Shown: positions 41,263 through 60,828 of the stretch, in pieces | How positions within the stretch are numbered: the stretch's first letter is position 1 | Layout: each line of letters begins with the position of its first letter | Source: Acidimicrobiales bacterium | GTDB taxonomy: Bacteria; Actinomycetota; Acidimicrobiia; Acidimicrobiales; SHLQ01 | NCBI GenBank assembly: GCA_020628865.1 | Contig: JAHDEJ010000008.1 | Location: forward strand, 62,001 to 126,000 | DNA length: 64,000 bases | Direction: 5' to 3' | Notes under the pieces: model-generated | Database searches by the model: none | The model's input: only the letters and a program-made list of their open reading frames with translations | Told to the model about the DNA's origin: nothing | Made by a program: the position numbers and the translations under genes

Positions 41263-43134
41263 CTACTCCAGCGTGCAACTGCAGGAGTTGACCTCTCGGG
41301 TGATGATGCCCTTGCCGGTGTCCATGTGCGTGGTGCACGGCATGCACGGGTCGAAGCTCCGGATCGCTCGCAGGATGTCGATGCCCTTGACGTCGTCGTC
41401 GCCGACGCTCTCGAGAATCGGCGTATCGACGATGGCTTCCTCGTACGGGCCGGGCAGACCGAAGGGATCGCGTGGGGCGGCGTTCCAGGTGGACGGGGTG
41501 TTGATCTGGTAGTTGACGATCTTGCCCTTGTCCATGTGCAGGTGATGGGTGAGGTAGCCGCGGCCGGCTTCCCAGAACCCGTAGCCGACCCGCTCGTCCT
41601 GTGGAACCGTGAACTTGGTGGCCGTCTTCGTTTGGCCGGCTCGCCACAGGTCGAACGCCTGCATGAGGTTGATCATGCCGATCGCTGCGGTGAAGGCCAC
41701 GCCGTAGGCACGGCCGCGGTTGCGCTCGAATGCGTTGAGCTTCTCGGGAATCTTCCAGTTGAGTTCCATCTCGGGAAGTTCATGGCGCGGCATGAGCATG
41801 CGCAGGCCGTCACCGGTCGACGCGATGTAGGGGTTGTCCTGCAGGTTGCCGGCGAGTGCGGTCGTCCACATACGGCCGTAGACGCCGGTCTCCATCGAGA
41901 CACGGTCCCAACGGGGGGCGGTGTCCCACGTGTACTTCTCTTTGAAGTTCTTGCCTTCAGGTCGGGGGATCGTGACCTTGTTCATCATGTGATACGGACT
42001 CATCGGGTTGCCCAATGGGTCGGTCTCGAAGCGCTGCGGACCGTTCTTGGTCCAGTCGTCGTAGTAGCTGTGCTCGACGAACTCCTCGATGCCCATGTTG
42101 ATGTGGGTGAGGTCGGTGGTGACGAGCTTGCCGTCCATGATGATGCCCGGCGCCGAATAGCGGGCGTTGCCCCAGGCGTCGATGTTGGCGTACGTGGCGT
42201 CGTAGACGTCGGGGTCGTCCCAGATGCCGGTCTGGATCAGGTTCGACGGACGCAGACCGACCAGTTCGTACTCGGGGTTGGCTTCGAGGAAGAAGTCGCA
42301 GATGTCGTCCCACCAGCCGGCGAGGCGCTTGGAGTAGTCGAAGATCTTCGCAAGCTGGTTGTAGAACTCGTTGAACGTCGAGGTCGAGATGGTGGTGGAC
42401 ACGCCGCCGGGCACGAGGGTCGACGGATGCGGGAACTTGCCGAACATCAGCGTGCACATGATGCGACCGATGCGCGTGTACTCGAGCGCTTCGAGGTAGA
42501 TCTGCCCCTCGAGCGGGTTCATCGCATCCATGATGTCTTTGACGGTCTTGTAACCGTGGATGTGTGCGTTCTTGGCCGGGGTCTGCTCGGCGAGCGTGAC
42601 GAGCTCGGGGTTCGTCATCGACACGAGGGCGGTCGAGTAGTCGGGACCGGCGAGCAGACCGAGGTGGATGGGGTGGTCGTAGAACATCTCGGCCACTTCG
42701 CCGAGGTTTCGCACGACCACGCCGAGCGGTGGCGGCACGATGCCGAAGGCCTGCTCGATGGCCATCGACGAGACGGTCGAGTGCACGCCGCCGCAGACGC
42801 CGCAAGCGCGGGAGCTGATGTCGATGGCATCGCGCGGGTCGCGGCCCTGCAGGATGATTTCGTAGCCACGGAACAACATGGCCTGGCTGTAGGCGTCGAC
42901 GGCTTTGCGGTTCTCGAGGTCGAGGGTCGTGTGCACGGCGAGAGCACCAGCGACACGGGTGACCGGGTCGATGCTCCATTCCTTCAACCGGGGCGGAGCC
43001 GAGCTCGCACCAGATTCGTTGGGGTCGTACTCCCAGATGGGCTTGGTGTCGACGCCGTACGGGTCGGCGACGCCATCGCGAATCTTGGTCTTGCCGTCGG
43101 CACCAACGTCGATTGGCAGGTTCGTGAATGTCAT
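41263..43134 (-). CDS. hhyL: [NiFe] hydrogenase large subunit, group 1h/5 (high-affinity) type
   Basis: A 623-residue catalytic subunit. Nickel ligands: L1 motif SRACGVCGGVHS (R-x-C-G-x-C-x3-H, about residues 110-121) and L2 motif DPCMPCTTH. A 20-residue tail beginning MDTGKG follows the last His and should be cut by the maturation protease. The N-terminus (TFTNLPIDVGADGKTKIRDG...PPRLKEW) is a feature of actinobacterial uptake hydrogenases that oxidise trace H2. The start ATG 43134 is 8 bases after the stop of the small N-terminal-like gene. Confidence 0.9.
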   Translation of the reverse strand: MTFTNLPIDVGADGKTKIRDGVADPYGVDTKPIWEYDPNESGASSAPPRLKEWSIDPVTRVAGALAVHTTLDLENRKAVDAYSQAMLFRGYEIILQGRDPRDAIDISSRACGVCGGVHSTVSSMAIEQAFGIVPPPLGVVVRNLGEVAEMFYDHPIHLGLLAGPDYSTALVSMTNPELVTLAEQTPAKNAHIHGYKTVKDIMDAMNPLEGQIYLEALEYTRIGRIMCTLMFGKFPHPSTLVPGGVSTTISTSTFNEFYNQLAKIFDYSKRLAGWWDDICDFFLEANPEYELVGLRPSNLIQTGIWDDPDVYDATYANIDAWGNARYSAPGIIMDGKLVTTDLTHINMGIEEFVEHSYYDDWTKNGPQRFETDPLGNPMSPYHMMNKVTIPRPEGKNFKEKYTWDTAPRWDRVSMETGVYGRMWTTALAGNLQDNPYIASTGDGLRMLMPRHELPEMELNWKIPEKLNAFERNRGRAYGVAFTAAIGMINLMQAFDLWRAGQTKTATKFTVPQDERVGYGFWEAGRGYLTHHLHMDKGKIVNYQINTPSTWNAAPRDPFGLPGPYEEAIVDTPILESVGDDDVKGIDILRAIRSFDPCMPCTTHMDTGKGIITREVNSCSCTLE

Positions 43135-43142
43135 GGTTCGAC

Positions 43143-43334
43143 CTAGTTCGTTCCCCACCCGCTGAGGCGGGGTGGTGTGGTGCTGGCGGCAGATCCAGCG
43201 TGTTCGCTGGAGGTGGAGACGGTGACGTATTGCTTGATGGGCGTTTCAGACGTGCCGTACGGGTCGCCGGCCGTCTCGAGCAGCTTGGCTTTGCCGTCGT
43301 TGTCGAATTCGATGGGAAGGTTCTTGAAGCACAT
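43143..43334 (-). CDS. 63-residue protein resembling the N-terminus of the large subunit
   Basis: This small frame encodes MCFKNLPIEFDNDGKAKLLE...DPYGTSETPIKQY...TPPRLSGWGTN, which aligns along its length with the first ~55 residues of the downstream large subunit (TFTNLPIDVGADGKTKIRDG, DPYGVDTKPIWEY, APPRLKEW). It fills the gap between small and large subunit genes exactly, 9 and 8 bases from them, so it is almost certainly translated. It is either a duplicated domain or an extra structural subunit; I infer the latter. There is no signal peptide. Confidence 0.8.
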   Translation of the reverse strand: MCFKNLPIEFDNDGKAKLLETAGDPYGTSETPIKQYVTVSTSSEHAGSAASTTPPRLSGWGTN

Positions 43335-43343
43335 GGCTGCGGC

Positions 43344-44576
43344 CTAACTGCTCTTGGCTTTGTCAGCGTTGCGGTTGGTCATCGTCTTGTAGAACCGGTG
43401 GACGGTCTTCTCGGCACCGACCGGCTGGCTCTTGTATCGGGCCCAGCCGCTCGGCGATTCATCGCTTTCCCATCGGACGGAGCGCTGCTTGTCGTGCATG
43501 GTGAGGTGGCGCATGCGACGGATGAAGCCGCCCATGACGCGGCTGGTCGTGCCGCTGACGAAGGATCCGGGTGGGGCGACGTAGAACGGTGCGAACTTGT
43601 CGGGGAAGCCGGGCATGGTGCAGCCGATGCAGATGCCGCCCATGTTCATGCAGCCGCCGTGGCCGTCGACGATGCCGCGTTCGGCGATGTTGCACTGCAC
43701 GACGGGGCCCCAGCAGCCGAGTTCGACGAGGCATTCCTTGTCGCCGTATTCCTCGGCGAAGACGCCTTCTTCGTAGTAGCCGGCGCGGGGGCAGTGGCGG
43801 TGCACGGTTTCGGTGAACAGCCAGGCCGGGCGGCCGAGCTCGTCGAACTCGGGCAGCGGGGCGAGGCCGTTGAGGAAGAGCAGTGCTGCGGCGGCGGTTT
43901 CGAGGACGTTGTCGCCAACCGGGGAGCAGCCGGGCACGTTGATGACGGGCAGACCGAGCGTGGAGCGGTAGTCCTTGCCCAGATGGTCCATCACGCCCTT
44001 GGCGTTGGTGACGTTGTTCGCCGCGGCCGGAATGCCGCCCCAGGTGGCACAGGTGCCAACGGCGATGGTGGCTGCGGCGAGGGGCGCCATGCGGTCGAGC
44101 CATTCGAGGCTGGTGATCTGGCGGCCGGTTTCGCGGTCTTCGCCGAGGCCCATCCAGTAGCCGTCGCCGGAGTAGGTCTCGTCCATGATCGAGCCCTCCC
44201 AGCAGATGATGAAGGGTGCGTCGAGTTCGCCGGCGGCGGCCATGCGAAGGTTCTCGGTCCATTCCGCACCCGACTCGACGGACACGACCGTGTGGATGAG
44301 CTCCACCTTGGGGAGGCCGGGGACTCGTCCCAGGAGGAGATCTTCGAGGCGTGGGTGCGTGGCGCCCGTGACGGAGATGGTGCAGCCGTCGCAGGAGGCG
44401 CCGACGATCCAGAACAAGTAGACCTTTTCGAGCTTGCTGCGGTAGACCTCGTCCCGTTTCGGGTTGATCTGGCTTCGCATTGCCACGGGCGCAAGCGGGT
44501 GGGCCGGGTCGACCGTGAGCGGCATCAGCTCGTTGTCGCTGTGCGAGTGATCGGGCAACTTCGTGTACTGCGCCAT
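43344..44576 (-). CDS. hhyS: [NiFe] hydrogenase small subunit, group 1h/5 type
   Basis: A 410-residue Fe-S subunit. Cluster ligand motifs: GASCDGCTIS (about residues 58-67), GTCATWGG, VPGCSPVGDN, the medial/distal HRHCPRAGYYEEG, LVELGCWGPVVQCN, and GCMNMGGICIGCTMPGFPDKF. There is no N-terminal Tat signal, fitting cytoplasmic or membrane-peripheral hydrogenases of this group. Asp in the CDGC motif fits the 3Cys/1Asp proximal cluster described for the actinobacterial-type enzyme. The ATG has a GGAG site. Confidence 0.9.
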   Translation of the reverse strand: MAQYTKLPDHSHSDNELMPLTVDPAHPLAPVAMRSQINPKRDEVYRSKLEKVYLFWIVGASCDGCTISVTGATHPRLEDLLLGRVPGLPKVELIHTVVSVESGAEWTENLRMAAAGELDAPFIICWEGSIMDETYSGDGYWMGLGEDRETGRQITSLEWLDRMAPLAAATIAVGTCATWGGIPAAANNVTNAKGVMDHLGKDYRSTLGLPVINVPGCSPVGDNVLETAAAALLFLNGLAPLPEFDELGRPAWLFTETVHRHCPRAGYYEEGVFAEEYGDKECLVELGCWGPVVQCNIAERGIVDGHGGCMNMGGICIGCTMPGFPDKFAPFYVAPPGSFVSGTTSRVMGGFIRRMRHLTMHDKQRSVRWESDESPSGWARYKSQPVGAEKTVHRFYKTMTNRNADKAKSS

Positions 44577-44667
44577 ACTCTCTCCAGTTGCTGTCCGTGC
44601 CTGGGCTAGGTGTAGTATACACACAGCCAAGAGACGTTCTAGCTGGCCGAAAACTTGAGAGTTTTGC
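44577..44667. promoter_or_regulatory. Divergent hydrogenase promoter region with two inverted repeats
   Basis: This 91-base gap separates the hydrogenase structural operon (minus) from the regulator/maturation operon (plus). GTGTA-GTA-TACAC (44610-44622) contains TATACT in minus orientation, a good -10. AAAACT-TGAG-AGTTTT (44650-44665) lies directly before the plus-strand ATG. Either could bind the PadR or Cys/His-rich protein encoded next door. This is inference. Confidence 0.55.
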
Positions 44668-45153
44668 ATGAACCCTCCCGACGAAAACGCTTCGCTTGTC
44701 GCACCGAAATCGTCAGCGCTCCAGATGCTCTACTGGCGGAGCGAGATCCTTCAGGTCATGTATTGGCTGCGCGGCGAAGGCTTCGGCGACATCGTCGATG
44801 CACCGATGGTCGAACGCTTTCTCGGGGTCGAGGCCCGCAACGGTGTCGGCTACCTCGATCGCCTGGTCGAAGAGGGGTACCTCACGGTCGACGGATCGTT
44901 CTATGCGCTGTCCGAGTTCGGCTTGAAGCAGGGTGCTCGTGAGTTCGCCGATTCGTTCAGCGAGCTCACCAAGCCCGCCCACGGCGAGTGCAGCGACGAC
45001 TGCTGGTGCCACGCATCGGTCGACGAGGCCGACGCATGCATGGCGCATCGCATCGAGCACAACCACGCCATGGACCTGAAGCACGACCCCCACGGCCACA
45101 CGCACGATCACGGGCATGCGCACATTCACTCCGAGGACGGCCATGACCACTAA
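44668..45153 (+). CDS. HTH-like protein with Cys cluster and His-rich tail
   Basis: A 161-residue protein. Residues 19-100 look like a winged helix (QVMYWLRGEGFGDIVDAPMVERFLGVEARNGVGYLDRLVEEGYLTVDG). Then comes a metal-type cluster, Cys 108, 112, 114 and 124 (GECSDDCWCHAS), and a C-terminal tail with about a dozen His in 30 residues (HDPHGHTHDHGHAHIH) like those of HypB or SlyD. I infer a metal- or redox-sensing regulator with nickel storage. It is the first gene of the plus-strand hyp operon and overlaps the PadR gene by 11 bases. Confidence 0.7.
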   Translation: MNPPDENASLVAPKSSALQMLYWRSEILQVMYWLRGEGFGDIVDAPMVERFLGVEARNGVGYLDRLVEEGYLTVDGSFYALSEFGLKQGAREFADSFSELTKPAHGECSDDCWCHASVDEADACMAHRIEHNHAMDLKHDPHGHTHDHGHAHIHSEDGHDH

Positions 45154-45505
45154 CAACCCGTCGGTGTTGCCACGGCGCTTCCTGCGGCCGCTGCTGTTTC
45201 TGGGTCTGTCCCAGGCGGACCGTTCCTACGGCTACGAGCTGGCCGAGGCTGTCCGTGGCTTCGGGCTGAACATCGACATGGCCGGCGTCTACCGCGAGCT
45301 GCGGTCGATGGAACAGAAGGATCTGCTGAGCTCGGGGTGGGAGCCGTCGGACAATGGCCCGGACCGCCGGGTCTACATGGTCACCGATGCCGGCCGCGAA
45401 GCAATGGCTCAGGCGGTTGCCGACCTGGGGCTCGCTCGAGACCAGCTGTCCGCTGCGCTCGAGTCGGTCTCGGTGAACAACGCTGCCGCGAAGACTGCGG
45501 AATGA
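45143..45505 (+). CDS. PadR-family transcriptional regulator
   Basis: A 120-residue PadR-type winged helix (RPLLFLGLSQADRSYGYELAEAVRGFGLNIDMAGVYRELRSMEQKDLLSSGWE). The ATG at 45143 lies inside the end of the preceding gene. It probably regulates the divergent hydrogenase promoter. Its stop overlaps the CooC-like ATPase start (ATGA). Confidence 0.85.
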   Translation: MTTNNPSVLPRRFLRPLLFLGLSQADRSYGYELAEAVRGFGLNIDMAGVYRELRSMEQKDLLSSGWEPSDNGPDRRVYMVTDAGREAMAQAVADLGLARDQLSAALESVSVNNAAAKTAE

Positions 45506-46278
45506 AGCTCGCGGTCGCCGGCAAGGGCGGGGCAGGCAAGACCACGTTCTCTGCCACTGCGTCGCGGCTGCTCGCTCGGTCGGGCCGCGATGTCGTGGCG
45601 ATCGATGCCGACACCAACCCGAACCTGCACGCCGCGTTGGGGGTGTCGAACGAGGACATCCAGGCGGTTCCGTTTCCGCCCACCTCGCTCGTGTCCCGCT
45701 CGTTCAACGGGCCGATGCTCAACGAGCCGTTGGCCGAGGTGCTCGACCGCCATACCTTGGTTGCCCCCGACGGGGTGCGCCTGCTGCGGATGGGCATGCC
45801 CGAGCACGCCGACGAGGGTTGTTTGTGCTCGGCCCATGCCGTCGTGTCCGCCCTGTTGGGCGACCTCGATGCGCTGCCCGAGACGATCACCCTCATCGAC
45901 ATGGAAGCATCGCCCGAACACCTCAGTCGGGGCACCGCACGGGAAGCGAACGCACTCGTGCTCATCGCCGAGCCCTACTTCCGTTCGCTCGAAGCCGTGA
46001 AGCTGCAAGCCAAGCTCGCGGCCGAAACGAACATCGGGCGCGTTGTTGTCGTGGCCAACAAGTGCCGGTCCGACACGGACTTCGCCGGAATCAGCGAGTT
46101 CTGCAACAACTACGACCTCGATCTCATCGCCCGCATCCCGTGGGGCGACGAAGTGCTCGACGCCGACGCGGCAACCACTCCCCTCCTCGACTTCGCACCC
46201 GACAGCCCGGTCATCGAGGCTGTGCAGCAGGTGTGCGATCTCCTGACCCAATCCCTACCGACAGAGCAGGCCCCCTGA
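45502..46278 (+). CDS. CooC-family nickel-insertion-type ATPase (hydrogenase operon)
   Basis: A 258-residue MinD/CooC-type P-loop ATPase: deviant Walker A GKGGAGKTT (residues 7-15), IDADTNPNL switch, metal-binding C-x-C at Cys 107 and Cys 109 (GCLCSAH), IDMEASPEHLSRGT Walker-B region, and NKCRSD. CooC proteins bind Ni or Zn between two subunits and insert nickel into CO dehydrogenase. In this locus it sits where hypB would be expected, so it may deliver nickel to the hydrogenase. Confidence 0.85.
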   Translation: MKLAVAGKGGAGKTTFSATASRLLARSGRDVVAIDADTNPNLHAALGVSNEDIQAVPFPPTSLVSRSFNGPMLNEPLAEVLDRHTLVAPDGVRLLRMGMPEHADEGCLCSAHAVVSALLGDLDALPETITLIDMEASPEHLSRGTAREANALVLIAEPYFRSLEAVKLQAKLAAETNIGRVVVVANKCRSDTDFAGISEFCNNYDLDLIARIPWGDEVLDADAATTPLLDFAPDSPVIEAVQQVCDLLTQSLPTEQAP

Positions 46279-46565: not shown

Positions 46566-47599
46566 CGACGAGCACGCTCCCGGCTGAAGCGCTCGCTCTT
46601 GCGCGGACGTTCACGGCGGGCGGACGTCTCATCGTTTCGGCGCTCGATCGGCCGGACCATGCCCGCCACGTTGCGGTGGAGTTCGTGCACCCGGCGATCA
46701 CCGGAGCCAAGTCGCTCCCCTCGTTCGCTGTTGCTCCGGGCGACCTGGACCATGTCGTGCGCCCCGACGACGCGGTGCTCATCATCGAGTCCGCCGGCCT
46801 TGCCTTCGATCGCACGCTGCCCGCCAACGCACAGCTGTTGGTCACCGGGGCCGACCAGACCGAGCCCGAACTGGTGCGCTGGTATCACGTGTTGTGGGAG
46901 CTCGTGCAGCTTGGTCTGGAGCATCCCGGCCTCACCGGCGGGTCGGCCAGTGAAGGTGGCGACCCCACCAACTTCCTGTATCCCTTTCTCGACGCAGCCG
47001 AGGACGACGAGCCGGCACTGTTGGCGTCGATGACGAGCTCCGAGAGCGCCAAGCACACCGAATCGACCGAGCTCGCCGCCCAGACGATCGCCGCAAACGC
47101 AGCAGCCGTCGAAGCAATCGTCGAGCAGATCGGCACCGCGGTCGCCGCCGGCGGCACGGTGTTCAGCATCGGCAATGGCGGTAGCGCCTGCGATGCCGCC
47201 CAGCTCACCCGGTTGCTTCAAGCCAAGGGTGTGCGTGCGATGTCGTTGGCCGAAGACCCGGCGACGCTCACGGCGCTGGCGAACGACCTTGGTGTCGCCC
47301 GAATCTTCTCTCGTCAGGTCGACGCTTCGGTGCGGCCGGGCGACGTGGTCGTGTTGTTCAGCACGAGCGGTTCGTCGGCCAACCTGTTGTCGGTGCTCGA
47401 CCTGCAGGTGGCGTCCGAGCTCACGATCGTTGCGTGTGCCGGATACGGGGGCGGCCCCATGGCGGCGCATGAAAATGTCGACCATCAACTGATCATCGAC
47501 TCGTCGTCGGTCCATCGCATCCAAGAGGCACAGGGCGTGCTGATCAACGAGATCTGCGCCCGCATCAATTCGACCGCTTCACCGGAGGTTCACGCATGA
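46562..47599 (+). CDS. SIS-domain protein in hyp operon
   Basis: A 345-residue protein. Residues 1-165 form an N-terminal domain I do not recognise (phrases such as DALDRPDHARHVAVEF and DPTNFLYPFLDAA). The C-terminal part (about 175-340) is a phosphosugar-isomerase SIS domain of the GmhA type (FSIGNGGSACDAAQLTRLLQAKG, LFSTSGSSANLLSVLD, HRIQEAQGVLINEI). The start is GTG overlapping the hypC stop, and its stop overlaps hypD. It is wedged between two partner maturation genes, which implies a hydrogenase role not yet defined. Confidence 0.8.
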   Translation: MTTSTLPAEALALARTFTAGGRLIVSALDRPDHARHVAVEFVHPAITGAKSLPSFAVAPGDLDHVVRPDDAVLIIESAGLAFDRTLPANAQLLVTGADQTEPELVRWYHVLWELVQLGLEHPGLTGGSASEGGDPTNFLYPFLDAAEDDEPALLASMTSSESAKHTESTELAAQTIAANAAAVEAIVEQIGTAVAAGGTVFSIGNGGSACDAAQLTRLLQAKGVRAMSLAEDPATLTALANDLGVARIFSRQVDASVRPGDVVVLFSTSGSSANLLSVLDLQVASELTIVACAGYGGGPMAAHENVDHQLIIDSSSVHRIQEAQGVLINEICARINSTASPEVHA

Positions 47600-48723
47600 A
47601 GTTCGTCAGCGAATTCCGAGACCCGGAAGCGGCCAAGATCCTCATCGCCGAGATCGAGGAGCTCGCCGCAGATCAACCGGCCCGCAAGTTCATGGAGGCG
47701 TGCGGCGGCCACACCCACGCCATCTACCGCCACGGCATCGAGTCGCTGCTGCCGGAGAGCATCGAGATGGTGCACGGTCCCGGCTGCCCCGTGTGCGTGA
47801 TTCCCATGGGGCGCATCGACGACGCCATTTCGATCGCCGAACAGGACGGCGTGACCATGTGTTGCTTCGGTGACCTCATGCGTGTTCCCGGCGGTTCGAG
47901 CACGTTGCTCGAAGCGAAGGCCAAGGGCGCCGACATTCGGGTCGTCTACTCCCCGCTCGATGCGCTCGCCATCGCCGAAAACGAACCCGACCGCAACGTG
48001 GTGTTCTTCGCCGTCGGGTTCGAGACCACGGCTCCCTCCACGGCAATCACCGTCATGCAGGCACGGGAGCGCAACGTGGAGAACTTCTCGATCTTCTGCA
48101 ACCACGTGACCATCGTTCCGCCGATGAAGGCGATCCTCGATTCGCCCGGCATGGAGCTCGACGGGTTCCTCGGCCCCGGCCACGTGAGCACCGTGATCGG
48201 CACCGGCCCGTACCAGTTCGTGTCTCGCGAATACGGCCTGCCCTTGGTGACCACCGGTTTCGAACCGGTCGACATTCTCCAGGGTGTCGCCATGCTGCTG
48301 CGCCAGCTGGCCGAGGGTCGGGCGGAAGTCGAGAACCAGTACAAGCGAGTGGTGCGCGACAGCGGGAACCCGGCTGCGCTGAGGATGTTGGGCGAGGTGT
48401 TCGAGCTTCGCCCACACTTCGAGTGGCGTGGCCTTGGGTTCATCGCCCAGTCCGCGCTGTCGCTGCGCGACGAGTTCGCCGGCTTCGATGCCGAGAAGCA
48501 CTTCGCGCTTCCCGGTGTGCGGGTGGCCGACCCGAAGGCCTGCCAGTGCGGCGAGGTACTCAAGGGTGCCATCCGCCCGTGGGAGTGCAAAGTCTTCGGC
48601 ACTGCGTGCACTCCGGAAACGCCGATCGGCACGTGCATGGTGTCGTCGGAGGGTGCGTGCGCCGCGTACTTCAACTACGGCCGGTTCCGGGCCAAGAAGC
48701 GCATCCCGGTGACGAGCACATGA
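47596..48723 (+). CDS. hypD: Hydrogenase maturation protein HypD
   Basis: A 375-residue HypD. Conserved blocks: FMEACGGHTHAIYRHGI about residue 34, HGPGCPVCVIP about 60, GFETTAPSTA, CNHVTIVPPMKAIL, GFLGPGHVSTVIG, and the 4Fe-4S Cys motif with CQCGEVLKG...ECKVFGTACTP near the end. It assembles the Fe(CN)2CO unit with HypC and HypE. Coupled to both neighbours by ATGA overlaps. Confidence 0.95.
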   Translation: MKFVSEFRDPEAAKILIAEIEELAADQPARKFMEACGGHTHAIYRHGIESLLPESIEMVHGPGCPVCVIPMGRIDDAISIAEQDGVTMCCFGDLMRVPGGSSTLLEAKAKGADIRVVYSPLDALAIAENEPDRNVVFFAVGFETTAPSTAITVMQARERNVENFSIFCNHVTIVPPMKAILDSPGMELDGFLGPGHVSTVIGTGPYQFVSREYGLPLVTTGFEPVDILQGVAMLLRQLAEGRAEVENQYKRVVRDSGNPAALRMLGEVFELRPHFEWRGLGFIAQSALSLRDEFAGFDAEKHFALPGVRVADPKACQCGEVLKGAIRPWECKVFGTACTPETPIGTCMVSSEGACAAYFNYGRFRAKKRIPVTST

Positions 48724-51582: not shown

Positions 51583-51647
51583 AGGGTCACGGGAACTTAG
51601 GCATAGCGGGCCCTCCCGGCCATGCCCCGCTCAACCGATCCGAACAC

Positions 51648-51985
51648 CTTCAAGGCCCAGCGAGTCGACCAACTTCTCGACCGCATCCCAGACATCCGGC
51701 GCGATTGCGCGGTCAAGGGGTTCGCCTCGGCGGTCGGCGGCGACGAGGTCGGCGGTGGGGGGGATGACGACGTTGGGCGGGACGTCGTGTCGCTCGCACA
51801 GTTCCTCGATCGTCAGGCGGGCGCCGTCAGAATCGGCCTTGTTGCCGACGCCGATCCGGCGCTCGATGCCGGCGTCCATGTCGATGATCGTGTCGTCGGT
51901 TTCGGACTGCAGCGCCTGACCGCTCGGCCCTTCACGCGGGCGCGGCCACCGCACGGGCACCCGGCGCCGGCTTCGTCGACGTAGC
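51648..51985 (-). pseudogene. Decayed duplicate of the CooC-like ATPase gene (55782-56543)
   Basis: This stretch encodes on the minus strand a C-terminal half nearly the same as the ATPase at 55782-56543 (ADRRGEPLDRAIAPDVWDAV, EKLVDSLGLE). An internal block of about 120 bases is missing; the join lies at a short repeated GCTCGATGCC/GTTCGATGCC. Beyond about 51925 the homology (VDEAGAGCPCGGRA) continues in another frame. There is no P-loop. It cannot make a working ATPase. Confidence 0.85.
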
Positions 51986-52041
51986 GACCACCATCTGCCT
52001 GCGACGCGATCGAGCGCGGTGACAACGACCTGCCGGCTAGC

Positions 52042-52204
52042 TCGTTCTAGGCGTTCGTTGGCGAGGCTGGTAGGCGAGCATCTTTGCTCTCGGTGAACGC
52101 TTGCCCGTGCTGACTCGTCCAGTTCGCAATCGTTTCGAGCACCGGGAGGAGCGTGTGTGCGGTGTCGGTGATGTCGTACTCGACCCGCGGCGGAATCTCA
52201 TTGA
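52042..52204 (-). pseudogene. Fragment copy of the HxlR gene (53816-54202)
   Basis: 163 bases here match 53811-53973 with four mismatches by direct comparison, covering the C-terminal part of the HxlR regulator including its stop. Similarity decays over the next ~35 bases. It lies directly beside the CooC fragment, in the same orientation as the intact gene. Confidence 0.9.
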
Positions 52205-52295
52205 TTGGTGTTCCAGGCCCTCGCGTTGGTAGCGGCGCAGGGTTAAGAACCCACGACCTGCGGGGTCTGGGCCCGACGAGACCTGATCTCAGACC

Positions 52296-53589: not shown

Positions 53590-53815
53590 GGGCTAGTCCT
53601 GACAATCGGCGAAGCAACCCACCAGAAGGGTGGGCCGAATCGGTTTCGTTTGTAAGGACAGCTGGAACGCCGCTTGCGCAGCTCCTGAGGACGAGCCGTC
53701 GATCCACCCACCGGCGCAGAGAACACGCCGGCAGTCCAAAAACTACTCACCGACTGTGACACCGAACTTCGCTGCTTGATCGCGACGACTGAGGAGTTCG
53801 ACGCCCAAGATCGTT

Positions 53816-54202
53816 CTAGGCGTTCGTTGGCGAGGCTGGTAGGCGAGCATCTTTGCTTGCGGTGAACGCTTGCCCGTGCTGACTCGTCCAGCTCGCAATC
53901 GTTTCGAGCACCGGGAGGAGTGTGTGTGCGGTGTCGGTGATGTCGTACTCGACCCGCGGCGGAATCTCATTGAACTGCGTTCGGGTGACCAGGCCGTCGC
54001 GTTCAAGCTCGCGGAGTTGGCGAGTCAGTGTCGTTGGGGTCACTGGGCTCATACGTTCGGCGAGCTCGTTGAAGCGGGCCTTGCCGTCGCACCCAAGGCT
54101 GTAGAGGATTCCGATCTTCCAGCGACCGCCAACCATGCGAGTGAAGGTGGCGAGCGAGTCGACGGTGATGGCGGTCGATGTGTGATCTGCCACGTCTTCC
54201 AA
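53816..54202 (-). CDS. HxlR-family regulator
   Basis: A 128-residue winged helix: MVGGRWKIGILYSLGCDGKARFNELAERMSPVTPTTLTR, wing VTRTQFNEIPPRVEYDITDTAHTL. It is divergent from the hchA/nitroreductase unit and shares with it an intergenic inverted repeat (54212-54235), so it likely controls the aldehyde/quinone-defence genes. The single Cys in LGCDGKA could be a redox sensor. A partial copy of this gene lies at 52042-52204. Confidence 0.88.
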   Translation of the reverse strand: MEDVADHTSTAITVDSLATFTRMVGGRWKIGILYSLGCDGKARFNELAERMSPVTPTTLTRQLRELERDGLVTRTQFNEIPPRVEYDITDTAHTLLPVLETIASWTSQHGQAFTASKDARLPASPTNA

Positions 54203-55781: not shown

Positions 55782-56543
55782 TCAGGAAACCGAAACAGCC
55801 TCGAGCCCCAGCGAGTCGACCAACTTCTCGACCGCATCCCACACGTCGGGGGCGATCGATCGGTCGAGGGGTTCGCCGCGACGGTCGGCGGCGACGATGT
55901 CGGCGGTTGAGGGGATGACGACGTCGAGCGGGACGTCGTGGTGCTGGCACAGTTCCTCGATCGCCTGGCGGGCGTCGCCGGAATCGACCTTGTTGCCGAC
56001 GCCGATCCAGCGCTCGATGCCGAGCTCCTTCGCCAGACCGATCGTTCGTTGCGCGGTGATGACCGCCTTGCGGCTCGGCTCCATCATCAAGATGAGCACG
56101 TCGGCGTTGGCCAGGGTGCCACCGGCACGGCTCAAGTGTTCGATGCCTGCTTCCATGTCGATGATCGTGTCGTCGGTTTCGGACTGCAGCGCCTGACCGA
56201 GCAGGCTCTTCACGCTGGCGTGGCCCCCGCACGTGCAGCCGGCGCCGGCTTCGTCGACACGCAGTGCCGACATGAGCGCCACACCCTCTGGGGTGGCGAC
56301 GGAAAAGTCTTCCATGAGCTCGGCCACCGTCATGTCGCCCCGCTGGCCCACAACCATGGACCGTGGAATCGGTGCGAGCGTTTCGGTTGCCTCGGGGCTC
56401 AGCCCCAGCGACAGCCCAAGGTTGGGATTCGAATCGGTGTCGACGGCCAGCACCCGACGCCCACGGCTGACGAGCACACGAGCCAGAAGCGACGACGTCG
56501 TCGTCTTGCCGACCCCGCCCTTGCCAACGATCCCGATCTTCAT
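55782..56543 (-). CDS. CooC-family ATPase (second copy)
   Basis: A 253-residue MinD/CooC-type ATPase: GKGGVGKTT (residues 8-16), DTDSNPNLGLSLGL, C-x-C at Cys 103 and Cys 105 (AGCTCGGHASVKSLL), IIDMEAGIEHLSRAG and GNKVDSGDA. It differs from the copy at 45502 (about the same length, different middle) and is the parent of the decayed copies near 51.6-52.4 kb. It lies 95 bases downstream of hypF on the same strand? In fact hypF ends at 56639, so this gene follows hypF and may share its transcript. Confidence 0.87.
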   Translation of the reverse strand: MKIGIVGKGGVGKTTTSSLLARVLVSRGRRVLAVDTDSNPNLGLSLGLSPEATETLAPIPRSMVVGQRGDMTVAELMEDFSVATPEGVALMSALRVDEAGAGCTCGGHASVKSLLGQALQSETDDTIIDMEAGIEHLSRAGGTLANADVLILMMEPSRKAVITAQRTIGLAKELGIERWIGVGNKVDSGDARQAIEELCQHHDVPLDVVIPSTADIVAADRRGEPLDRSIAPDVWDAVEKLVDSLGLEAVSVS

Positions 56544-56638: not shown

Positions 56639-58843
56639 TCAGCCCAGGTGCGCTCGACCGATGGCTACCTGCCCGAGGGAGATGCCACCGTCATTCGGCG
56701 GGACGACGAGGTGGCGCATCACGCTGAAGTGCTCCTTGCCCAACAACGGAACGAGAAGCTCCACGAGGTGCCGGTTCTGGAACACTCCCCCGCTGAGCGC
56801 AACCGTGGCGAGTCCCGTGGATTCCCGAATCCGAATGCACGTGTCGACGGCCATGCCGGCGAGTCCCCGATGAAACCGGTGCGCGACAAGCGAAGCATCG
56901 ACACCAGCGTCGAGATCGGCAACGATTGCCCCGATCACCTCTCCGGCATCGGTACCCGACCAGACGTAGCCATCAGCTGTCCGATCGGCGTCTGTGGCCA
57001 GGCCTTCGAGCGCGATCGCAGCCTCACCTTCGTAGGTGATGTGCTTGGCCAACCCGCACAGTGCGGCGACGGCGTCGAAAAGCCGCCCCATCGACGACGT
57101 CTGCAGCGTTGCCGGGTCGGCGCAAAGAGACGCCACCGCGTCGATGCGTTCTTCGTCGAGGATGTTCCTCACGAGCGAGGGGACCTCGCCGAACGTCGCC
57201 ATGCAATGGGCAACCGCCATGCGCCACGGCTCACGGATGGCCTTCGCTCCCCCGGGTAGCGCCACCGGTTGCAGGAAGGCCGCACGTTCATACCCGTGCG
57301 CGTCTCCCGCGAGGAACTCGCCGCCCCACGCCGTGCCGTCCTCGCCCCACCCGAAGCCGTCGAAGATGACGCCGATCGCCGGGCCTTCGTGGCCGTTCTC
57401 CACCAGACACGACACGAGGTGCGCATGGTGGTGCTGTACACCGAGGGTGGGCGCGATGTCCTGCCCGACCGCGAACTTCGTCGAGAGGTATTCCGGATGC
57501 AGGTCGTGCACCATCAACGCCACGTCCGCCTCGGCGAAGGCAATCTGATCGGCGATCGTCTCCTCGAACGCCCTTAGCGTCTGGGGGCTTTCGAGATCGC
57601 CCAGATGCAGCGACAGCGATGCCCGATCGTCGACGGCCAGACACGTCGTGCTCTTGAGCTCAGCGCCAACACCGAGCACGGTCGGTCCCGCTTGCAGCAG
57701 CGGCACCGAGCGGGGTGCGTACCCACGGGCTCGTCGAAGGAGTTGAAAATCGCCGGCAACGACCTGACCCACCGAGTCGTCGGCGCGGCGTTCGATTCGA
57801 CGATCGTGCGCCAGCACCAGGTCGGCGATGCCATCGAATGCGGTTGCGGCACGGTCGTCGTCGACGACGATCGGCTCGTTCGACCGGTTTCCGCTCGTGC
57901 AGACCAGCGGCACCGCGGTGCCGCTCGCCAGGAGGGCGTGCAGGTTCGAGGCGGGCAGCATGACACCGAGGCGGCGGGTTCCCGGAGCGACCTCCTCGGC
58001 CACCGCGTTCGACGGTCGGGCCTGCGCCAACACGATCGGCGCCTCGGCCGACTCGAGCGCCTCCCGCTCCACCGCATCCAGAACCACCAGGTCCTCGGCC
58101 ATCGCCACCGAGTCGACAAGAAGGGCGAACGGTTTCGACTCGCGATGCTTGCGGTCGCGCAGCCGTTGCACCGACTCCGGCCGGTCGGCCCGGCAGAGAA
58201 GTTGGTACCCGCCCAGGCCCTTCACGGCGACGATGGCGCCGTCCACGAGCGCGGCGACGGCCTCGTCGATGGTGGGGCCGGTCAGCTGCGGGCCGCACCG
58301 GGGGCACGACGTGGCCTGCGCATGGAAGCGACGGTCCGTCGGATCCTCGTATTCCGCCCGGCATTCGGCACACAGCTCGAACGCCGCCATCGTCGTGTTG
58401 GCCCGGTCGTAGGGAAGGTCGCTGACGACGCTGTAGCGAGGACCACAGGTCGTGCAACAGATGAAGGGGAATCCGTAGCGGCGATCGCCCGGGTCGTGCG
58501 CCTCATCCAGGCATTGACGGCACGTGGCGACATCCGGCGGAATCGCCATCGAACGCTGCTGTTCGAGTTGGCGGCTCGGCACAATCCGAAACCCCTCCAC
58601 GCCCCGGGGCGATGAGGCGACCACGGTCACCCGATGCACATCGGCCAGCTCCGGCGCTTCGGTCCGAACCCGCCGGACGAACGCGTCGCACTCGTCGGTC
58701 CCGCCCTCCACCACGCACACCACTCGGGCACCAGCGTTCGTGACCTCGCCGGCCAGACCCAGCGATGACGCCAACCCGAACACGAACGGGCGGAACCCCA
58801 CGCCCTGCACGGTTCCGGTGATCTCCACCGTCAGGCGCGTCAT
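56639..58843 (-). CDS. hypF: Carbamoyltransferase HypF
   Basis: A 734-residue HypF. In order: acylphosphatase domain (ITGTVQGVGFRPFVFGLA), two Zn-finger blocks (CRQCLDEAHD, CCTTCGPRY, CAECRAEY, CPRCGPQL), YrdC-like domain (KGLGGYQLLCRA, KPFALLV), Kae1-like domain (GVQHHHAHLVSCL, FDGFGWGEDGTAWGGEF, ALSGGVFQN). It makes the carbamoyl group used by HypE. The ATG at 58843 is used; GTG 58852 is possible. It is separated from the hyp operon by 7 kb of other genes. Confidence 0.94.
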   Translation of the reverse strand: MTRLTVEITGTVQGVGFRPFVFGLASSLGLAGEVTNAGARVVCVVEGGTDECDAFVRRVRTEAPELADVHRVTVVASSPRGVEGFRIVPSRQLEQQRSMAIPPDVATCRQCLDEAHDPGDRRYGFPFICCTTCGPRYSVVSDLPYDRANTTMAAFELCAECRAEYEDPTDRRFHAQATSCPRCGPQLTGPTIDEAVAALVDGAIVAVKGLGGYQLLCRADRPESVQRLRDRKHRESKPFALLVDSVAMAEDLVVLDAVEREALESAEAPIVLAQARPSNAVAEEVAPGTRRLGVMLPASNLHALLASGTAVPLVCTSGNRSNEPIVVDDDRAATAFDGIADLVLAHDRRIERRADDSVGQVVAGDFQLLRRARGYAPRSVPLLQAGPTVLGVGAELKSTTCLAVDDRASLSLHLGDLESPQTLRAFEETIADQIAFAEADVALMVHDLHPEYLSTKFAVGQDIAPTLGVQHHHAHLVSCLVENGHEGPAIGVIFDGFGWGEDGTAWGGEFLAGDAHGYERAAFLQPVALPGGAKAIREPWRMAVAHCMATFGEVPSLVRNILDEERIDAVASLCADPATLQTSSMGRLFDAVAALCGLAKHITYEGEAAIALEGLATDADRTADGYVWSGTDAGEVIGAIVADLDAGVDASLVAHRFHRGLAGMAVDTCIRIRESTGLATVALSGGVFQNRHLVELLVPLLGKEHFSVMRHLVVPPNDGGISLGQVAIGRAHLG

Positions 58844-58923
58844 CTCGCTCACGACTGCAAGTGTGCACCCCATGCCCCACCCAGGCCAGCTCCGACCTCC
58901 ATCGGATTGCATCTCCCCGTCCC

Positions 58924-59307
58924 ATGACCGATCGTGTTCACGTGAGAAAACTGGTCTTCTTCTGCAGCGCCGACCCCCGCGAAGACACCGGCGCGTTCTT
59001 CCGGGCCTATCACTTTGCGAACGTCGCCTCGAAGAGCGGACTCGACGCAGAAGTCCGCCTCGCCGGCTCCGCCGTGGACGTGACCGACACCGACACGCTC
59101 CCCGCCACCGAAGCCGGCGACCTGATCCGCGAGAAGATCCGCGAATCGATCGACGCCCCCTTCGACGTCTCCCTTTGACCGTTCTCCAGCGAGGCCCGTG
59201 GGGTCTCCGCCGACGACGCCGCAAAGATCGGCGGTTACTTCCGCCAGCTCGGCGACATCTTCAAGGAGACCGCTGCCGGCGAAACCGAATTCATCTACGT
59301 CGGATAG
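58924..59307 (+). CDS. DsrE-like protein, putative selenoprotein (TGA-encoded Sec85)
   Basis: Read through the in-frame TGA at 59176-59178, this is a 127-residue DsrE/TusD-type protein (KLVFFCSADPRED-TGAFFRAYHFANVA; then SL-U-PFSSEARGV; C-terminal KIGGYFRQLGDIFKE). The TGA falls exactly where the family has its persulfide-carrying Cys (Cys, seven residues before a conserved Arg-Gly; here U85 and R92-G93). Downstream codons keep family-like sequence to a proper TAG at 59305. A 7-bp hairpin with GU apex follows at SECIS distance. Without readthrough the protein would end at residue 84. Confidence 0.78.
59191..59207 (+). promoter_or_regulatory. Putative bacterial SECIS hairpin for the DsrE-like gene
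   Basis: GAGGCCC (59191-59197), loop GTG, then GGGTCTC (59201-59207): seven pairs including one G-U. Counting the U of UGA (59176) as 1, the apical G and U are at 23 and 24, the same positions as in the E. coli fdhF SECIS. It lies inside the coding sequence, as bacterial SECIS elements do. Confidence 0.72.
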
Positions 59308-59317
59308 TGAGCCCCGG

Positions 59318-60079
59318 GTGATCAGAATTGCGTTCGCGGGCAAAGGCGGCTCCGGCAAGTCCTCGGTCTCCGGCACGTTCGCCCGCCTGCTCGCCCGACG
59401 AGACCGACCCGTGCTCGCCGTCGACTCCGACCCGCTCCCCGGCATGGCCTACTCGCTCGGCATCCCGGTGGACGACCATCCGACCCCAGACGATGTCGTC
59501 GTGGAAGGCCCTGAGGGCGGCCCGAAGTGGGTGCTGCGTCCGGGCCTCGACGCCGCCGGGTTCATCGACCAGTACGCGGCCGCCGGCCCAGACGACGTGC
59601 GCTACCTGCAGTTCGGCAACAGCTGGGGACACTGGTCCACGCTGCAGCGGGGCCAGCACGCATGGAGTCAGGTCGTTCGAGAGATGGACCCGAACGCCTG
59701 GAACGTCGTCGGCGATCTTCCCGGCGGAACGAGACAGGCAATGTTCGGCTGGGCCAAGTACGCCGATGTCCTCGCCCTCGTCGTCGAACCCACGGCCAAG
59801 TCGATCCAGGTGGCGCGCCGCCTGCGCAACATCACGAAAGCCGAGTGGTCGCCGGAGCACGTCGTCGTCGTCGCCAACCGAATCGACCATCCCGACGACG
59901 TGCAACGAATTCACGACGCGTTGGAACGCCCGATCATCGGCGCGATCCCCGACGACGCCGCCGTCACCGCAGCCGACAAGCGGGCGGCCGCTCCGCTCGA
60001 CGACGGCTCCGGCCCCTTCGTCGACGCCGTCGAGCAACTGGTCGACACGGTCGAATCGTCCTACGATGCGGTCAGCTGA
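59318..60079 (+). CDS. CooC/MinD-type ATPase without the C-x-C motif
   Basis: A 253-residue P-loop ATPase: VIRIAFAGKGGSGKSS, VDSDPLPGMAYSLG, GDLPGGTRQAMFGWAKYAD, and VVANRID near the end. It belongs to the CooC/nitrogenase-like (NifH-like) group, but the region that holds C-x-C in its relatives instead reads QFGNSWGHWSTLQRG, with no Cys. It starts at GTG 59318, 10 bases after the DsrE-like stop. It may pair with the Sec-containing ATPase downstream as a heterodimer. Confidence 0.8.
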   Translation: MIRIAFAGKGGSGKSSVSGTFARLLARRDRPVLAVDSDPLPGMAYSLGIPVDDHPTPDDVVVEGPEGGPKWVLRPGLDAAGFIDQYAAAGPDDVRYLQFGNSWGHWSTLQRGQHAWSQVVREMDPNAWNVVGDLPGGTRQAMFGWAKYADVLALVVEPTAKSIQVARRLRNITKAEWSPEHVVVVANRIDHPDDVQRIHDALERPIIGAIPDDAAVTAADKRAAAPLDDGSGPFVDAVEQLVDTVESSYDAVS

Positions 60080-60099: not shown

Positions 60100-60828
60100 A
60101 TGAGAGTCGCAGTTGTTGGAAAGGGAGGATCGGGCAAGACGTCCGTGAGCGGCGTGCTCGCTCGAAGCCTCGCCCGGCACGGCCACCACGTGATCGGCTT
60201 GGACTGCGACACGAACCCCAACCTCGGCCTCTCGCTCGGTGTCGGCGACCTCGAAACCGAACGGCTGCTCTCGCTCCGCGACCAGATCGACGAGGGCGAG
60301 CAGAAGCACGCCCACACGTGGGCCGACATCCTCGACGCCTACGGCACCGATGCGCCGGACGGCGTCCGCCTCACCGTCGTCAACCGAATCGACAATCCCG
60401 AACCGGATTGACCTTGATGCGGCCTGTCCGCTGAGCAGTTGCTCAGCTCCGTTCCCCACACCGACACGATCATCGTCGCCGACCTCGAAGCCGGCATCGG
60501 CACACTCACCCGCCTCCCCGAGCAGGCGGTGGAACACACACTCGTCATCGTCGAGCCCACACCACGGTCGATCGACGTGGGCCTGCGGGCCGTTCAGGTC
60601 GCCACCGATCGCGGGCAGGGTTCCGTGACCGTCGTGGCGAACAAGGTCGCCAACGACGAAGACGATGCGCGGGTTCGATCCACATTCGCCGACCACACCG
60701 TCGTAGCCGTCCCCGCAGACCGGGTCGTCGTACGCGCCGACCGAGAGGGCGCATCGCCGCTGGACTTCGGCGCCGAGTCACCCGCCGTCATCGCCATCGG
60801 CGAGCTCGCCCAACTCCTCACGCAGTAG
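60100..60828 (+). CDS. CooC-family ATPase, putative selenoprotein with U-x-U-C motif
   Basis: A 242-residue CooC-type ATPase read through two in-frame TGAs (60409-60411 and 60415-60417). P-loop GKGGSGKTS, DCDTNPNLGLSLG, then NRIDNPEPD-U104-P-U106-C107-GLSAEQLL, and a full Walker-B/C-terminal half (VADLEAGIGTLTRL, VVANKVANDEDDA) in the same frame to the TAG. U104 and U106 sit at the positions of the C-x-C metal motif in two paralogues here (Cys 103/105 at 55782-56543, Cys 107/109 at 45502-46278). A 7-bp hairpin with AGTT loop follows. Confidence 0.8.
60430..60447 (+). promoter_or_regulatory. Putative bacterial SECIS hairpin for the CooC-like gene
   Basis: GCTGAGC (60430-60436), loop AGTT, GCTCAGC (60441-60447): a perfect seven-pair stem. 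Counting the U of the second UGA (60415) as 1, the apical G and U are at 24 and 25, close to 23/24 of the E. coli fdhF SECIS; from the first UGA they are at 30 and 31. A single element may serve both UGAs. Confidence 0.72.

Follow-up and report, generated by a model that had tools for sequence, protein, structure and literature searches.

The gene at positions 60100-60828 (plus strand) of the window, a 64,000-nt stretch of an Acidimicrobiales draft genome, encodes a CooC/MinD-type P-loop ATPase whose reading frame contains two internal stop codons. It starts with ATG at 60100 and ends with TAG at 60826-60828, and its only internal in-frame stops are TGA at 60409-60411 and TGA at 60415-60417. 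Read-through translation gives a product of 242 residues with the deviant Walker A motif GKGGSGKT and, if both TGAs specify selenocysteine (Sec), the motif Sec104-Pro-Sec106-Cys-Gly (UPUCG) in place of a metal-binding C-x-C. An earlier note on this DNA had claimed that the same open frame on either side of the TGAs encodes one complete ATPase, and this holds; the frame is otherwise uninterrupted. It had also set codons 104 and 106 against paired cysteines of two paralogues in the window, which is likewise correct: Cys103/105 in a CooC-like ATPase with a CTCG motif (55782-56543, minus strand) and Cys107/109 in one with a CLCS motif (45502-46278, plus strand). Directly upstream of the selenoprotein gene lies a Cys-less partner ATPase of the same superfamily (59318-60079, plus strand; the ORF is open from 59198 and the start is tentative), which could heterodimerise with the selenoprotein ATPase. 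These genes sit in a hydrogenase cluster.

Among 59 relatives of the source genome searched for orthologues, we found eight more, seven with both TGAs and one with Cys-x-TGA. Scanning an alignment of the nine orthologues against 84,980 genomes, one per named species of bacteria or archaea, returned 73 loci. Seventy were readable at the motif (L139 and L140 were left out for frameshifts in the aligned stretch, and L142 is a paralogue of the CTC type), giving 71 genes for comparison with the window gene included. Codon 106 is TGA in 55, TAG in four and Cys in 12, with no other state; at codon 104, 39 genes have TGA and 32 have Cys, and Cys107 never varies. The consensus is thus Sec/Cys-x-Sec/Cys-Cys-Gly with Cys in other genomes, as the earlier note had anticipated when it proposed aligning homologues here. 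Both TGAs recur in 39 of the 71 genes, at least one stop codon occupies codons 104/106 in 59, and the remaining 12 have C-x-C, which excludes chance and bears out the argument that such a pair is hard to explain as random nonsense mutation. The carriers are mainly Acidimicrobiia, with others in Pseudonocardia, Nocardioidaceae and Geodermatophilaceae and in single metagenome-assembled genomes (MAGs) of Chloroflexi and Gemmatimonadales. A tree built with the motif columns excluded requires at least 10 changes among the UxU, CxU and CxC states.

These comparisons bear on two explanations that do not involve Sec. The source assembly is a draft of 113 contigs, and the stops could reflect a pseudogene or an assembly error. 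However, the same stops are present in dozens of independent assemblies, isolate genomes among them, and the downstream half of the gene is conserved throughout. We rejected this explanation, which conservation contradicts and which we consider vanishingly improbable. Alternatively, translation could stop at 60409 and restart at TTG 60439 or another internal start, yielding two proteins; an ORF from that TTG to 60828 does exist mechanically. But the Cys-form homologues are single unbroken proteins of the same length as the selenoprotein ATPase, a split would part the Walker A motif from the remaining ATPase, and the nucleotide-level conservation described below would be left unexplained. On these grounds two separate proteins were also rejected, as very improbable. 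Neither homologues without Cys at these positions nor homologues split in two, the observations that the note had named as counting against Sec, were seen.

The note had also drawn attention to a seven-pair hairpin with GU in its loop and suggested a search for a bacterial SECIS element (bSECIS) after 60409. The hairpin (60430-60447, plus strand) pairs 60430-60436 with 60441-60447 around the loop AGUU, has its core GAGCAGUUGCUC at 60433-60444, and begins 18-24 nt 3′ of the two TGAs. It matches the bacterial SECIS model: the loop is 4 nt with G in second position (published criteria, 3-9 nt with G in the first two positions), the stem 7 bp (4-16 bp), the distance from the two UGAs to the loop 25 and 19 nt (16-37 nt), and the folding energy -11.4 kcal/mol (MFE ≤ -7.5). 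Compared to shuffles, this energy is not significant (z = -0.91), so the SECIS claim rests on conservation. A scan of the window with Rfam found no family matching the hairpin.

Conservation of the hairpin is coupled to the stop codons. Its 12-nt core (GAGCAGTTGCTC, encoding Glu-Gln-Leu-Leu) is identical in 59 of 59 stop-codon genes and in 1 of 12 Cys genes (Fisher p = 4.7e-12; the sequences are related, so p is indicative only). In the Cys genes, identical or near-identical residues are specified here by varied codons. As a control for kinship, we compared codon columns, and among 68 columns of conserved amino acid the four core codons are the only invariant ones. The outer stem pairs also covary, with 25 doubly changed cells vs 11.0 ± 2.2 in shuffles. 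The single Cys-form gene that keeps an intact core (L113:2320-3048) comes from a genome in which selA was not detected, and probably reverted from Sec to Cys recently, leaving a relic SECIS.

The source genome encodes selA, selB, tRNA-Sec and selD; selA adjoins selB on contig 64, contig 13 carries tRNA-Sec(UCA), and selD lies on contig 106. An in-frame TGA also occurs in this selD (L201, G000:C106:117069-117992), giving the motif GAGUGCK, a Sec form already known for SelD. In a set of 50 named genomes, selA occurs in 33-34 of 37 with a Sec form of the ATPase vs 6 of 13 with a Cys form. We did not find selA in three Sec-form MAGs (L091, L104 and L126), and these may be incomplete. Co-occurrence of the ATPase gene and selA among the 59 relatives is in the expected direction but weak (p = 0.09), because most of these relatives have selA.

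The four genes with TAG come from Geodermatophilaceae (Blastococcus saxobsidens, B. mobilis, Geodermatophilus chilensis and a Modestobacter). All four genomes have a tRNA-Sec with the anticodon CUA, while all eight resolved TGA genomes, the source genome included, have UCA. ARAGORN labels the CUA tRNAs 'tRNA-Pyl' from the anticodon only; a covariance model identifies them as tRNA-Sec, with 65-67 bits. Two MAGs labelled Geodermatophilaceae (L121 and L134) have TGA; a clear tRNA-Sec is present in one of them, and its anticodon is UCA. Thus, the stop codon at the motif tracks the tRNA-Sec anticodon, as Sec decoding requires, and the matched TAG/tRNA-Sec(CUA) cases amount to a natural experiment. 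The CUA tRNA-Sec of Geodermatophilaceae was already known (Mukai et al. 2016, via PMC5330540). The UAG-decoded selenoproteins reported from this family (FDH, a UGSC-motif protein and AhpC; PMC5330540) use the same tRNA-Sec(CUA) and Sec-UAG but include no ATPase, unlike the present gene.

These data also address whether the TGAs specify an amino acid other than Sec, through a general reassignment of UGA (for example to Trp), or by unspecific read-through. Either would account for an open frame on both sides of the TGAs. Against them, the aligned residue elsewhere is always Cys and never Trp, TAG takes the place of TGA in genomes with tRNA-Sec(CUA), the gene has no further internal stops, and the SECIS core is coupled to the stop codons. 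Contradicted by the Cys alignment, the TAG/CUA genomes and the SECIS coupling, this explanation was rejected and in our view has almost no chance of being correct. Comparative genomics instead supports a mechanism in which SelB, tRNA-Sec(UCA) and the hairpin at 60430-60447 would cause UGA codons 104 and 106 to be read as Sec. Judged from sequence, both TGAs are almost certainly decoded as Sec to give a full-length selenoprotein.

The hydrogenase cluster encodes a [NiFe]-hydrogenase large subunit (41263-43158, minus strand; Pfam NiFeSe_Hases) and small subunit (43344-44669, minus strand), together with hypD-like (47596-48723, plus strand) and hypF-like (56639-59224, minus strand; start tentative) maturation genes, named from their translations and cluster conservation, and a NifU-like gene. 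The closest solved large subunit, from which the hydrogenase takes its group-1h-type label, is 5aa5_C, the Cupriavidus actinobacterial-type chain (3.2e-156; next chain, 2.3e-47). The partner ATPase is adjacent in 69 of 72 loci, and in 54 of 72 the flank analysed contains further hydrogenase-cluster genes, with the two paralogous ATPases included in the count. For the 18 loci without cluster genes in the flank, the hydrogenase is encoded elsewhere in 16 of the 18 genomes. Among the 59 relatives, the close hydrogenase large subunit is present in seven of eight carriers and in only one non-carrier (p = 2e-7); in that relative, G006, no orthologue of the selenoprotein ATPase was detected.

The two paralogous ATPases of the cluster also occur in Sec forms. 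Relatives of the CTC-type protein have UTC or UTG in five genes (L059, L060, L061, L062 and L063) from three genomes of the order, and the CLC type is ULC in L136 and L137 (ULCS in the Chloroflexi and Gemmatimonadales loci). In both types Sec is at the first metal cysteine, and the candidate hairpins differ in sequence. A sixth paralogue (G046C10) has UGG. From these sequences, Sec seems to have replaced these cysteines repeatedly in hydrogenase-cluster ATPases. The window also holds, 4 kb from the intact CTC-type gene, a second copy that is incomplete and decayed (87%; 51643-51922 and 55794-56199). Between the two copies are HNH-like, HxlR-like, DJ-1/PfpI-like and nitroreductase-like ORFs, identified solely by their translations, and a repeat of 175 nt is present at 52039-52213 and 53808-53982.

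By sequence, the best solved homologue of the selenoprotein ATPase is CooC1 of Carboxydothermus hydrogenoformans (PDB 3KJE/3KJG/3KJH/3KJI; 3kje, 4.1e-25), and the next solved SIMIBI ATPase scores 4.5e-12. Both proteins have the deviant Walker A and two metal-ligand positions, spaced by two, in the same place: Sec104 aligns with CooC1 Cys112 and Sec106 with Cys114. In CooC1, these cysteines bind Zn or Ni where the two subunits meet, while tight Ni binding is not general to CooC proteins (PMC6006190). The two differ in that CooC1 has no third cysteine, whereas Cys107 follows Sec106 in the selenoprotein, and in that CooC1 serves Ni-CO dehydrogenase, while the selenoprotein is linked to a hydrogenase instead. 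AlphaFold2 predicts the expected fold (mean pLDDT 88.8) and places the motif in a loop of lower confidence that precedes helix 111-117. Comparison of folds gave a TM of 0.75 with CooC1, but Z is tied with many MinD/NifH entries, so CooC is not separated from them.

By sequence, the gene specifies a P-loop ATPase of the CooC type that carries Sec-x-Sec-Cys in place of the metal-binding C-x-C. By analogy with CooC1, a soft metal, most likely Ni, may be bound at a selenolate site between two subunits, either in a homodimer or with the Cys-less ATPase as the second subunit, and could then be handed to the group-1h-type [NiFe]-hydrogenase in an ATP-dependent step. Metal delivery to the hydrogenase would be the simplest role, with Ni the natural candidate. 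More speculatively, an aerobe might use Sec here for its affinity for soft metals and because it can be oxidised reversibly.

The main rival to metal delivery is a selenoprotein without a nickel-chaperone role, in which Sec-x-Sec-Cys would serve a redox function or an Fe-S cluster (NifH-like or Mrp/NUBPL-like) in hydrogenase assembly or electron transfer. Selenoproteins are mostly redox proteins (PMC13188914), the NifH and Mrp/NUBPL families have related folds, and a NifU-like gene lies within the cluster; the extra, invariant Cys107 is missing in CooC1 and in the window paralogues. However, CooC1 is the closest sequence match, both chalcogens fall on its metal ligands, and the enzyme served is a Ni enzyme. 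We regard the redox or Fe-S role as possible but rather unlikely. Taken as a whole, Sec decoding directed by UGA and the hairpin, combined with CooC-type metal delivery to the hydrogenase, is highly probable. We give even chances to a more specific version: a selenolate metallochaperone in which up to four selenolates in the dimer (two with the Cys-less partner) would bind Ni and deliver it to a maturing hydrogenase of the high-affinity type; the three CooC-like ATPases of the cluster would each have changed metal-binding Cys to Sec in some lineage.

No selenoprotein of the MinD/CooC/NifH-like superfamily and no U-x-U motif is present in the 2026 catalogue of 119 prokaryotic families (PMC13188914), among the nine new deep-Sep families (PMC12013277) or in NCBIfam release 20. 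A literature search, which covered open-access papers, likewise yielded no CooC, MinD or hydrogenase-maturation ATPase with Sec. Decoding follows the standard mechanism and the metal site is new; the protein appears to represent an uncatalogued selenoprotein family, adding to the MinD/CooC/NifH-like ATPases, where none was catalogued, with a previously unlisted U-x-U-C motif. CobW-type proteins are P-loop metallochaperones. The conceptually nearest catalogued cases of UGA-Sec in metal handling, the CobW-related NF041053 (UxxC) and the Cu/Zn efflux transporter SO_0444 (UxC; PMC13188914), have a single Sec, belong to other superfamilies and have motifs other than U-x-U-C. While every check proposed in the earlier note came out in its favor, the TAG/tRNA-Sec(CUA) co-variation, the Cys-less partner, the cross-genome hydrogenase link and the Sec forms of the paralogues are new here. 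Standard gene callers would truncate or split such genes, making it easy to overlook a metal protein of the cluster.

In soil and marine actinobacteria, the association would tie selenium to relatives of the hydrogenase type that oxidises atmospheric H2. Several carriers are cultured, among them Pseudonocardia kunmingensis, P. nigra, Blastococcus saxobsidens and Geodermatophilus chilensis, which have single-Sec forms, so a selenium dependence of H2 oxidation is directly testable. In [NiFeSe] hydrogenases, selenium is likewise tied to a NiFe hydrogenase, but there Sec is a ligand within the enzyme, whereas here it would reside in an accessory ATPase; the L2 motif of the window hydrogenase, DPCMPC, has only Cys. 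Single in-frame stops were seen within three matches to the hydrogenase large subunit, at G002:C56:6193-8085 (TGA), G486:C7:32985-34868 (TAG) and G472:C62:3211-5097 (TAG).
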